From the NCBI GenBank assembly GCA_905479735.1, contig CAJQNS010000093.1, forward strand, positions 1 to 64,000: a DNA stretch of 64,000 nucleotides, written 5' to 3'. A program made the translations under genes and the position numbers. This DNA comes from an uncultured Desulfofustis sp. Lineage in GTDB: Bacteria > Desulfobacterota > Desulfobulbia > Desulfobulbales > Desulfocapsaceae. The notes under the pieces were generated by a model that was not told the DNA's origin, made no database searches, and saw only the letters and a list, made by a program, of their open reading frames with translations. This document shows, piece after piece, positions 2,603 to 6,013 of the stretch. Position 1 is the stretch's first letter, and every line of letters begins with the position of its first letter.

Positions 2603-2631
2603 TTGACACGGTTCCGCTATCTCGTTAATAC
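2603..2631 (+). promoter_or_regulatory. sigma-70-type promoter for the cobalamin riboswitch RNA
   Basis: TTGACA at 2603-2608, a 17-base spacer, then TAATAC at 2626-2631, directly before the riboswitch. The -35 is perfect and the -10 partial. The stretch 2239-2600 upstream is gene-free and AT-rich around 2380-2410; I see no other feature in it. Confidence 0.55.
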
Positions 2632-2639
2632 TAGATCAA

Positions 2640-2830
2640 TTTCAGGTTCCACCAAGGTGGTGAAAAGTGAACCCGGTGCGAATCCGGGACGGGCCCGCCG
2701 CTGTAATCCTGCTCCTGTTCTCTGCTGCAAGGATGGGAGAACGCGTTCAACATTTCGTGCCACTGCCGTGCAGGCGGGAAGGCAGTTTGAAGGCGAAGGA
2801 AAGTCAGAAGACCTGCCTGGAAGAAAGGTG
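2640..2830 (+). ncRNA. cobalamin (B12) riboswitch
   Basis: The conserved AdoCbl-riboswitch core is readable: GAACCCGGTGCGAATCCGGG at about 2669-2688, then GGGCCCGCCGCTGTAAT, later GCCACTGCC and GGGAAGGCAG, and AAAGTCAGAAGACCTGCC near the 3' end. It precedes a cobalt chelatase gene. A small stem between it and the ATG (GGTCTG 2901-2906 with CAGACC 2921-2926, with a T-rich loop) may be part of the expression platform. By family precedent, bound cobalamin would switch the downstream gene off. Confidence 0.93.
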
Positions 2831-2946
2831 AATTATCTTGCGGACAAAGTAGTTCACACCGATACGAGATTACAGGGCATCCCGGATCAGTAAATAAAAT
2901 GGTCTGGGATTTTTTTATTTCAGACCGGAACAGGGGAGCAAGAGTT

Positions 2947-3936
2947 ATGAAATCTAATTGCAAGGTGTTCTTTCTGGCCATGATAATCTGCCTTTTGGGG
3001 GGAAGCGCCGCCTTTGGATCCGGTTCGATGGCTAAATCTGGAAACGGCAACAGCGCTATTATTCTGGCCAGCTTCGGAACCACAGTACCAGAAGCTGTCG
3101 GGGCCATCACCAACATCACTGCTACAGTGAGAAATGCCTACCCCGAGACGGAAGTTCGGATTACCTTCACCTCAAATATCATTCGCTCGATCTGGAAAGA
3201 GCGACAGGCAGAGCCTGACACCTGGATCTCCCGGGGAATTCCCGAAGAAGTGCTCTATGTGAAAAATTTCATAGCCACGGTCGGTGATCTGCTGGAGGAC
3301 GGCTATACCAATATCGTCGTTCAGCCCACCCATATGTTTTTTATGGAACAGTCCCACGACCTTCAGCAGTATGTCAATGGACTGGTCTCGATACGGACCA
3401 TGAAGCCCCGCTGGAAGCCGATCAACAAAATCGTCATGGGAAGACCCGCTCTGGGCAGGCCCGGGGATCTGTATCCCTATCATGACGATGTGGAGGCAGT
3501 CTGTGAGACACTGGCAAAAGACGCCGAGGAGGCCAGGCTAGCCGGTGCGCTTCTTGTCTACATGGGCCATGGCAATGAACACTGGTCAACCGGTATTTAT
3601 GCGGAGACAGAAAAAAAGATGAGGGAGCTCTATCCTGAGATAAAAACCTTTATCGGCGTTGTCGAAGGTGCACCGACATTGGCTGACCTGATGTCCCGGA
3701 TGAAACATCTGGAGAGTAAAAAGATCATTTTGCGGCCTTTCATGATTGTTGCCGGTGACCACGCAACCAATGATATGGCAGGGCCTGAAGTGGATTCCTG
3801 GAAATCGGTCCTGACGGAAGCAGGGTATAAGGTTGATGCGAAACTTGAAGGCCTTGGCAGCAATGACCAATTTGCTGCGCTGTTTGTCGATCATATCGCC
3901 GACGTGGCCAAAGATGCCGGGATTTTGCTGAAATAA
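2947..3936 (+). CDS. cbiK: CbiK-type sirohydrochlorin cobaltochelatase with signal peptide
   Basis: A class II chelatase that inserts cobalt into sirohydrochlorin, an early step of anaerobic cobalamin synthesis. The ATG at 2947, preceded by GGGGAGCAAGAG, gives 329 residues beginning with a clear signal peptide (about 1-24, hydrophobic core then AFGSG); an in-frame ATG at 2899 would bury it and is unlikely. Typical CbiK motifs are seen: ASFGTTVPEA near the mature N-terminus, PTHMFFMEQSHD, MGHGNEHWSTG and AGDHATNDMAG, holding the metal-binding histidines. Exported CbiK is known from Desulfovibrio, where a haem or iron transport role has also been suggested. The cobalamin riboswitch upstream supports a corrinoid role here. 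Confidence 0.93.
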   Translation: MKSNCKVFFLAMIICLLGGSAAFGSGSMAKSGNGNSAIILASFGTTVPEAVGAITNITATVRNAYPETEVRITFTSNIIRSIWKERQAEPDTWISRGIPEEVLYVKNFIATVGDLLEDGYTNIVVQPTHMFFMEQSHDLQQYVNGLVSIRTMKPRWKPINKIVMGRPALGRPGDLYPYHDDVEAVCETLAKDAEEARLAGALLVYMGHGNEHWSTGIYAETEKKMRELYPEIKTFIGVVEGAPTLADLMSRMKHLESKKIILRPFMIVAGDHATNDMAGPEVDSWKSVLTEAGYKVDAKLEGLGSNDQFAALFVDHIADVAKDAGILLK

Positions 3937-3997: not shown

Positions 3998-4429
3998 ATG
4001 ACCTGCACGGACTCTATGAAAAACTGCAAATTCGATGAACTCGAAGTACAATTTCAGCATATAGCCTCAGCCGACCAGGTCCCGATTGCCAAATTGGGAC
4101 TGTATGCCACCGCCTCGATGAAACATCTCGTCGAATATGAACAATCCTTTCAAGAGCTCAAGGATAGTGGCGATGTCTGCATCGGCTGTGGTGCAGATGA
4201 GGCGAACTGGTACTCAAGGGTGGTCGAATTATTTGCAGCCACCCTTGAGGAAGCCAGGCTTAACGGCACCATCAGAGCGGTCGATAATCATCGGGTTGGC
4301 ACAATGTATCTCGATGCCATATTGAACCTGATGATGCACCGCCTCGGTTCCACGACCCAGGACGGCATCGAGGATGACGTCCGAGTTCTGATGGATCTTT
4401 ATCTGAACGGGCTGGCGATAAACCGCTAG
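3998..4429 (+). CDS. TetR-like ligand-binding domain protein without DNA-binding domain
   Basis: A 143-residue protein resembling the C-terminal half of TetR regulators: amphipathic helices, a segment of the type ELFAATLEEARLNGTIR, and a C-terminal DVRVLMDLYLNGLAINR helix like the TetR dimerisation end. The roughly 50-residue helix-turn-helix that should precede it is absent, and the upstream bases are occupied by cbiK, so no in-frame extension is possible. CIGCG (residues about 61-65) adds two cysteines. It starts 61 bases after cbiK and may share its transcript. It could be a decayed regulator, or a stand-alone sensor that forms non-binding dimers. Its stop overlaps the end of the convergent gene at 4426-4698. 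Confidence 0.6.
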   Translation: MTCTDSMKNCKFDELEVQFQHIASADQVPIAKLGLYATASMKHLVEYEQSFQELKDSGDVCIGCGADEANWYSRVVELFAATLEEARLNGTIRAVDNHRVGTMYLDAILNLMMHRLGSTTQDGIEDDVRVLMDLYLNGLAINR

Positions 4430-4698
4430 TCGGCAGCTTGAGTCGCCCCTAATTTCTGCAGCGCCTCATCCCTGACCACCTTGATGCCGCCGGATTCGAG
4501 CATCGTATCGGGAACCACAATCGACTTGTCAGCGACCAGACCGGCCGTCACGTGCGGAAGGGCTCACCTGACGATAAAGAACTCTTCTTTTCTGATTACC
4601 GTAACATCGACTCCAGGCATCAGTTTCTTGGCCATCATCGCAGCCGGACCGCCGGCACCGCTGCAACCTACTATGACGAGCTTTTCACCATTTTTCAT
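4426..4698 (-). CDS. predicted short selenoprotein: N-terminal FAD module of CoA-disulfide reductase/NADH oxidase family, TGA = Sec45
   Basis: The frame starts at ATG 4698 behind a perfect GGAGG (4706-4710), encodes a Rossmann FAD motif VIVGCSGAGGPAAMMAKKL, and meets TGA at 4564-4566. Reading through gives ALPHVTAGL and a further 38 residues of family-like sequence before a real TAG at 4426-4428, 90 residues in all. The family normally has a redox-active Cys followed by (G/A)LPY here, so the TGA sits exactly on the catalytic cysteine. A hairpin with loop GGUCU begins 17 bases after the UGA. The usual 450-550-residue remainder of the family is missing, so it is either a stand-alone Sec mini-protein or a truncated remnant. 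It overlaps the stop of the convergent TetR-like gene by 4 bases. Confidence 0.65.
4533..4547 (-). promoter_or_regulatory. SECIS-like hairpin of the Sec45 gene
   Basis: On the minus strand CGGCC and GGUCG form a 5-bp stem (one G-U pair) closing the loop GGUCU. The loop begins 21 bases after the UGA, within the spacing used by bacterial SECIS elements, and resembles the loop of the E. coli fdhF SECIS as I recall it. It lies inside the reading frame, as bacterial SECIS elements do. Confidence 0.55.
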
Positions 4699-4996
4699 CA
4701 CCTTTCCTCCATTGGCAGATACTGTGTTGAACAAAATACCGAGCCACCGCAAAGAGACTATTTAAGCCGCAGATTAATCACATATACCCAAAATAAACTG
4801 CCTGTCAAATGAAATACGCTTGAAACAGCAAAGAAGTTTACGACACCGGCGGGACTGGCCGGCAAATCACCTCAGATACCGGGTGCTTAGGAACAAAAAA
4901 CGAATAATTCCGGAAACATACTGCATTGTAGGACAAGAGATATCTCGCCTGAAATATTAAGCTGCTGCTGCGAGATTCGAGGGAAAAACTGCTACC

Positions 4997-5968
4997 CTAT
5001 CTTCGTGGAATGGCCCAGCGGCCCTTTTCGTTCCTGCAGGCTATACCTGGAAACTCATAGGGCAGCCCTTCTTTGGCAAGCACCTGAAGGTATTGTCTGC
5101 AGATGCCACCATTGGGGTGTTTGAAAGATTTCACCGGGGTCACTCCGATGACCAGCTGCTGGTTGAAATTCTCCCAGACATTGGTGTCCCCAATCTGATT
5201 GGCTTCCAGAGCGTTCTGAAACTGTTTCTGAATGGAGAGAATATCGTTTTCATCAGCAGTGAACGTCTGCAGATCCGGCAGCACAGCGATCAATTCTTTA
5301 CTCCGATTTTCCCGGTAGCCGTTGTAATCACGATCTTCAACAACCCAGTGGTTGACGATCGGTGCGTAGTACCAGGTTCGATATTCCCGTGTCTTGCTGG
5401 TGGACCTGAATTTGTTCGGGTATCTTTTGCAGGTGATCTTCCAGGTATCGAAGTCTCCGGCACCTACGCTCAGCTTTTCAGTCCCTATTACTTCACAACT
5501 CCAGAAGCTGTCATAGCGGCTCTCCACGCCCAGTTCATCAAACCAGCGTCCTCTTTCATCGAATCGGGTTTTGTTGCCTACCTCGAGCGGCCAGAGCGGA
5601 GGCGTCGGTGGACTCATTATAAAGGTGGTCTGTTTGAAATCTCTATAGCCGTATCTTTTCTTAGTCTGCCACTTAAAGCGCTTGTAAATAAAATCCGGCG
5701 ACCCGGTGGAAATGGAACCGCGGTGATTTCTCCAGGTAATGCCTTCTGGACCCACTTTTATGACAGTTTCCCACGATCCATCTGAATACACAAAGGTGGT
5801 TCCGGCCTGGTACTTCGGCATCGGAGTTGTTTTCAAACCCAAGGTATTGCCCAGTTTAGCAGCCTCAGAAAATTCACCGCAGAAGAACAGGGCCAGAAGT
5901 AGGACATGGATACCGGCAAACACTTTCATCTGTTTAGAGAAGTCACCGTTAATGATTGAAACTCTCAT
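4997..5968 (-). CDS. secreted protein with 17-kDa surface-antigen-like C-terminus
   Basis: A protein of about 323 residues. The ATG at 5968 follows a weak GGGTGA; a TTG at 6004 or an ATG at 5926 are alternatives. The first 35 residues form a signal peptide (hydrophobic VLLLALFFCG, then SEAA). The middle (about 45-240) is rich in Trp and Tyr and resembles no domain I can name. The C-terminal 60 residues, with GGICRQYLQ, a conserved GIACR and ending GRWAIPRR, resemble the Rickettsia-type surface antigen domain. It follows the acidic secreted protein closely on the same strand, so the two are probably co-expressed at the cell surface. Confidence 0.6.
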   Translation of the reverse strand: MRVSIINGDFSKQMKVFAGIHVLLLALFFCGEFSEAAKLGNTLGLKTTPMPKYQAGTTFVYSDGSWETVIKVGPEGITWRNHRGSISTGSPDFIYKRFKWQTKKRYGYRDFKQTTFIMSPPTPPLWPLEVGNKTRFDERGRWFDELGVESRYDSFWSCEVIGTEKLSVGAGDFDTWKITCKRYPNKFRSTSKTREYRTWYYAPIVNHWVVEDRDYNGYRENRSKELIAVLPDLQTFTADENDILSIQKQFQNALEANQIGDTNVWENFNQQLVIGVTPVKSFKHPNGGICRQYLQVLAKEGLPYEFPGIACRNEKGRWAIPRR

Positions 5969-6013
5969 AATTTCACCCGAGATGTCGTCAATGATGGAGC
6001 CCAAATAAACCGT

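Follow-up and report, generated by a model that had tools for sequence, protein, structure and literature searches.

The 90-codon frame on the minus strand at 4426..4698 of the window (the whole stretch of 64,000 nucleotides that was analysed) is very probably a recent, non-functional relic of a full-length selenocysteine (Sec) enzyme gene, in a genus that is losing this gene. Its two ends are homologous to those of a CoA-disulfide-reductase (CoADR)-like enzyme encoded by ~452 codons, and alignment with intact members indicates that an internal deletion has fused the start and the end of what was formerly a Sec enzyme of ~450 residues, in frame.

The Sec codon and its SECIS hairpin

The sequence-only reading had described a minus-strand frame from 4698 to 4426 with a strong ribosome binding site (RBS), an FAD-binding motif and a single UGA, all of which are confirmed. 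The RBS, GGAGG (4706..4710, minus), lies 7 bases 5' of the ATG and is kept in a shorter relic in the genus mate G001. The FAD-binding start is GCSGAGG, the sole in-frame TGA is codon 45 (Sec45; 4564..4566, minus) and the stop is a TAG (4428-4426, minus), giving the translation MKNGEKLVIVGCSGAGGPAAMMAKKLMPGVDVTVIRKEEFFIVRUALPHVTAGLVADKSIVVPDTMLESGGIKVVRDEALQKLGATQAAD. The sequence after the UGA is family-like, as had been proposed: residues 1-78 (4465..4698, minus), comprising the FAD dinucleotide-binding start and the Sec site, are 60-85% identical to 19 intact homologs, and codon usage resembles that of genes both before the UGA (0.143) and after it (0.146), the window's genes averaging 0.120. 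Neither a sigma-70 promoter nor a terminator was found at the remnant, and no close relatives of it were found in viral contigs. A codon-usage scan of the window for further Sec frames gave none over the 0.15 threshold, a weak result since the remnant itself falls narrowly under it (0.14).

Homologs were sought in 58 related genomes, in a species-genome collection with an N-terminal alignment, and in family genomes. The first 58 genomes contain seven full-length relatives with 68-82% identity over about residues 1-80, each with TGA at codon 45, and the N-terminal alignment scan of the collection found 36 loci, including those of Desulfofustis glycolicus, Desulfoprunum benzoelyticum, Desulforhopalus, Desulfosarcina and Syntrophobacteraceae MAGs. 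The N-terminal searches together yield 34 distinct full-length homologs (450-456 aa, Desulfobacterota), and the Sec-aware comparison suggested with the sequence-only reading finds U45, encoded by TGA, in all 34. A match occurs in 14 of the 93 genomes of the family; 13 carry full-length Sec homologs, the window genome having the sole short one. A profile search of 395 phylum genomes added five TGA members, one ending at a contig edge, and four more distant, stop-free orthologs (L110-L113) with TGT or TGC at codon 45 and without the GCCGGTCTG loop sequence. Because TGA is shared by 34/34 homologs and replaced by Cys codons in these four, the comparison identifies the codon-45 UGA as a genuine Sec codon, one of a Sec/Cys pair. 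That it falls where a CoADR-type FAD enzyme has its redox Cys is also upheld: HMMER aligns Sec45 of the family with the catalytic redox Cys of CoADR/persulfide reductases.

A hairpin with a GGUCU loop had been noted at SECIS distance from the UGA. This element, ACGGCC-GGUCU-GGUCGC (4532..4548, minus), lies 21 nt 3' of the UGA, with its loop at 4542-4538 and a stem of 5 pairs plus an outermost A.C mismatch, within published limits for bacterial SECIS elements (PMC13188914). The fold check that had been proposed bears out the presence of the hairpin and not an unusual stability: the energy, -8.3 to -8.9 kcal/mol, is no better than that of shuffles (z=+1.24) and is uninformative as evidence. Synonymous conservation and covariation, and not folding energy, argue that it is a real bacterial SECIS. 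Of the 144 conserved codons that have four or more synonyms, the three with the strongest synonymous conservation are 52 (GCC, 34/34), 53 (GGT, 32/34) and 54 (CTG, 33/33), set against a median of 0.47 over all 144; these codons encode the apical loop and upper stem. The 6-pair stem is 98% paired over 34 distinct sequences including the window, and its covariation, 0.289, exceeds that of all 500 shuffles and of every slid register (<=0.127). The second stem pair is C-G in the window versus U-A or U-G in the others.

Could the frame be a chance one, with the UGA an ordinary stop and the similarity downstream accidental? The unremarkable folding energy is what such a reading has in its favour. 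It is refuted, and hardly credible, in the face of the 34 homologs that read through the same TGA, the existence of Cys orthologs and SECIS codons that are the most conserved synonymous sites.

The window genome (G000) is a MAG, ~91% complete and in 260 contigs. Its Sec machinery had been put forward as a further check, for which the outcome is mixed: tRNA-Sec (75 bits) and SelA (603 bits) are present, and a search for SelB found none in this MAG or in the genus mates G001, G003 and G004 (91-94% complete); in G002 a contig edge carries a fragment of it. The window genome also encodes a Sec-type HdrA with the motif DCSMUIIAPKLV (L101, G000:C72:47000-52500) and, next to it, an Fe-S oxidoreductase-like protein with UGH. 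With SelB not found, a small doubt attaches to the decoding of UGA as Sec in this organism, even though the genome has selA, tRNA-Sec and further Sec genes.

Internal deletion and probable decay of the locus

The protein ends at 90 residues and lacks the NAD and dimerisation domains, as the sequence-only reading had stated. Its Pfam match, Pyr_redox_2 (E=3.6e-5, short of Pfam's cut-off), covers profile positions 2-58 of 291 only; the NCBIfam match is to CoA-disulfide reductase (E=4.9e-7), and the FAD domain is incomplete as well. Relative to the full-length enzyme, residues 79-444 are missing, that is 366 codons or 1,098 nt, in frame. At the junction (4464..4465, minus) GATGAG is followed by GCGCTGCAG, and the last 12 residues, ALQKLGATQAAD (4429..4464, minus), stand directly after residue 78 (VVRDE) and correspond to the family C-terminus AAEQALQKLx. 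Intact members end in EPITIAAEQALQKLxx with small variations, AEQALQKL occurring in nearly all of the 34. The best placement of the tail's ALQKLG is the C-terminus in 33/34 homologs, and the 12,035 internal homolog 6-mers all score below the median C-terminal match. The alternative that the tail derives from around residues 83-88 (VDALQR in L010) was rejected, the C-terminus giving the better fit in L010 as well. AGG microhomology is possible at the deletion edges (GATGAGGTG and GAGCAGGCGCTGCAG in homologs). The organism's own genome yielded neither a second copy with residues 79-452 nor any further piece of the gene, the next best matches being ~32% identical paralogs.

The deletion is read from the assembly of one genome, the only one available for the species. 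Might the assembler or the binning have joined the two ends of an intact gene? The number of contigs in the MAG speaks for such an error, which is nevertheless very improbable: assembler word lengths far exceed the ~3 bases shared at the junction, no contig of the assembly contains the missing middle, and the relic in G001 represents independent decay.

The locus is flanked by ORF143 (3998..4429, plus), a converging neighbour without Pfam or NCBIfam match whose stop overlaps that of the remnant within CTAG, and by an upstream gene for a 335-aa protein (4997..6004, minus); both also border the site in G001 and G004. An upstream leader (4754..4930, minus) has 70% identity to the same place in G001, marking the locus as orthologous. 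G001 is collinear, with a DegQ-like protease, CbiK, ORF143, the 335-aa protein, a 212-aa protein, a PfkB-like kinase, an SDR and a GlpQ-like protein. Between its ORF143 and 335-aa gene, the leader, the RBS and ATGAAAGATGGCTAATATCTTGTCAT alone are left, the last a relic of ~9 codons (L093 4572) in which MKDG is followed by TAA as codon 5 and then by bases for LVI; its local score is 44 against 30 for the best of 500 shuffles. At the same site G004 has a ~70-base gap with no trace of the gene. The stretches examined in G002 and G003 are also without trace, an absence that is less informative since they are not fully syntenic and one flanking gene is missing at the comparable place. Apart from the window copy and the G001 relic, every relative found is full-length unless the end of a contig truncates it. 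The genus is most likely in the course of losing the Sec gene.

Elsewhere in the neighbourhood, a cobalamin riboswitch (Rfam RF00174, 88 bits) at 2627-2834 (plus) closely precedes the gene for a CbiK-type cobaltochelatase (2899-3936).

Relic or stand-alone mini-protein

The ancestral locus would have carried a full-length ~452-codon Sec gene for a CoA-disulfide/persulfide-reductase-like flavoenzyme with the motif R-U-A-L-P-H. A loss of ~1,098 bp, for which two short AGG repeats are possible end points, would then have brought codon 78 directly before the final 12 codons in frame, with RBS, start, Sec UGA, SECIS and stop all surviving. If the remnant is transcribed, translation would either halt at the UGA (44 aa) or, with Sec insertion, produce a peptide of 90 residues; lacking the NAD and dimerisation domains and the greater part of the FAD domain, this peptide could not do what the parent did. 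Of the conserved Cys and Sec residues it retains C12 and U45 only. AlphaFold2 gives it a pLDDT of 63, falling below 50 in the Sec segment (42-55). Because so few of these residues are kept and the model is poor around the Sec, catalysis by the remnant is very unlikely.

Why, then, is the remnant so neat? It is in frame, its RBS and SECIS are intact, and its pN/pS of 0.18 is inside the 0.14-0.29 of intact members, all of which count against a relic. The absence of any excess of amino-acid change suggests that the deletion is recent or that the remnant is still under constraint, synonymous sites being too diverged to tell which. The sequence-only reading had left the choice between a relic and a new kind of stand-alone Sec mini-protein. 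In the latter case, an in-frame internal deletion would have given rise to a 90-residue protein that is translated and kept under selection, with a proposed redox or metal/selenium-binding role for C12 and U45. Every signal from RBS to stop is intact, the N-terminus is conserved as well as in intact enzymes, the deletion is in frame, and the second stem pair has changed on both sides, from U-A to C-G. A mini-protein is unlikely all the same. Among the genomes searched the short form occurs in this one only, and in G001, the only genus mate where a trace of the gene was found, the relic is still shorter and contains a stop; the Sec loop is predicted to be disordered without the rest of the enzyme, no FAD, NAD or dimer domain is complete, and a fusion would be in frame by chance 1 time in 3. 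The choice thus falls on the relic, both ends matching the full-length enzyme and the middle being gone, and not on the stand-alone kind, of which no other short copy was found.

The parent enzyme and known Sec flavoenzymes

The parent family (450-456 aa) has complete FAD, NAD and dimerisation domains in a CoADR fold, and full-length members, here called UALPH after their motif, are intact in many sulfate-reducing relatives. Intact relatives score 256-264 bits against TIGR03385, under its equivalog cut-off of 578.8, and no dedicated UALPH model is among the best NCBIfam matches. The full-length gene has no evident shared operon partners, no neighbour family occurring in more than 5 of 24 loci. 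An AlphaFold2 model of an intact homolog (pLDDT 83) has fair confidence and resembles CoADR/persulfide reductases (TM about 0.87), among them A. fulgidus persulfide reductase, B. anthracis CoADR-RHD, P. horikoshii CoADR, 6ruz CoADR and Npsr. The Cys enzymes A. fulgidus NoxA-3 (6pfz), B. anthracis CoADR-RHD (3icr/3ict), S. aureus CoADR (1yqz) and Npsr (3nta) align with it at TM about 0.83-0.88 and 25-34% identity. Differently from these, the UALPH enzyme has Sec for Cys, no rhodanese domain and extra conserved C12 and C329. The family's conserved Cys are C12, C282, C329 and C425 (e.g. L039 6001-7353). C425 (SACNP; CAGNP or CAGQP in others) sits where CoADR/persulfide reductases have their C-terminal Tyr, and it is a possible partner thiol for Sec45. 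The parent was probably a CoA-disulfide/persulfide-reductase-like flavoenzyme, and the intact enzyme may work through a Sec/Cys or a Sec-CoA mixed selenosulfide.

A Sec-containing CoADR or FAD-dependent oxidoreductase is already known as a predicted family with the motif UGxP (PMC13188914, PMC9312934), entered under TIGR03385 with WP_011365774.1 (PMC13188914), and a Sec-containing 'NADH oxidase' has been named (PMC1794560). The remnant's parent has superfamily, fold and Sec at the redox-Cys position in common with UGxP Sec-CoADR; it carries UALPH instead of UGxP, and the window copy is short of 366 of ~452 codons. Both Sec enzymes coexist in two genomes (G009 and G035; L104, L105), with 28-33% identity over the matched N-terminus, which argues that UALPH is a separate Sec lineage. 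No description of a UALPH Sec subfamily was found in the part of the literature covered. The remnant thus leads to a well-supported, little-described Sec subfamily, distinct from the UGxP Sec-CoADR of reviews. Since standard gene finders end a frame at UGA, annotations of the sulfate reducers that have the intact UALPH enzyme may well list it wrongly as truncated or pseudo.

In sister species 38 selenoprotein losses have been counted, 8 of them in Deltaproteobacteria and including an 'NADH oxidase' (Zhang et al. 2006, PMC1794560). As here, these are losses of a Sec gene in close relatives. They were inferred from presence and absence, whereas decaying remnants are visible here in two species, so that a selenoprotein loss appears to be caught under way: both ends, the Sec codon and the SECIS persist in the window, nine codons in a sister, and no detectable trace in others.
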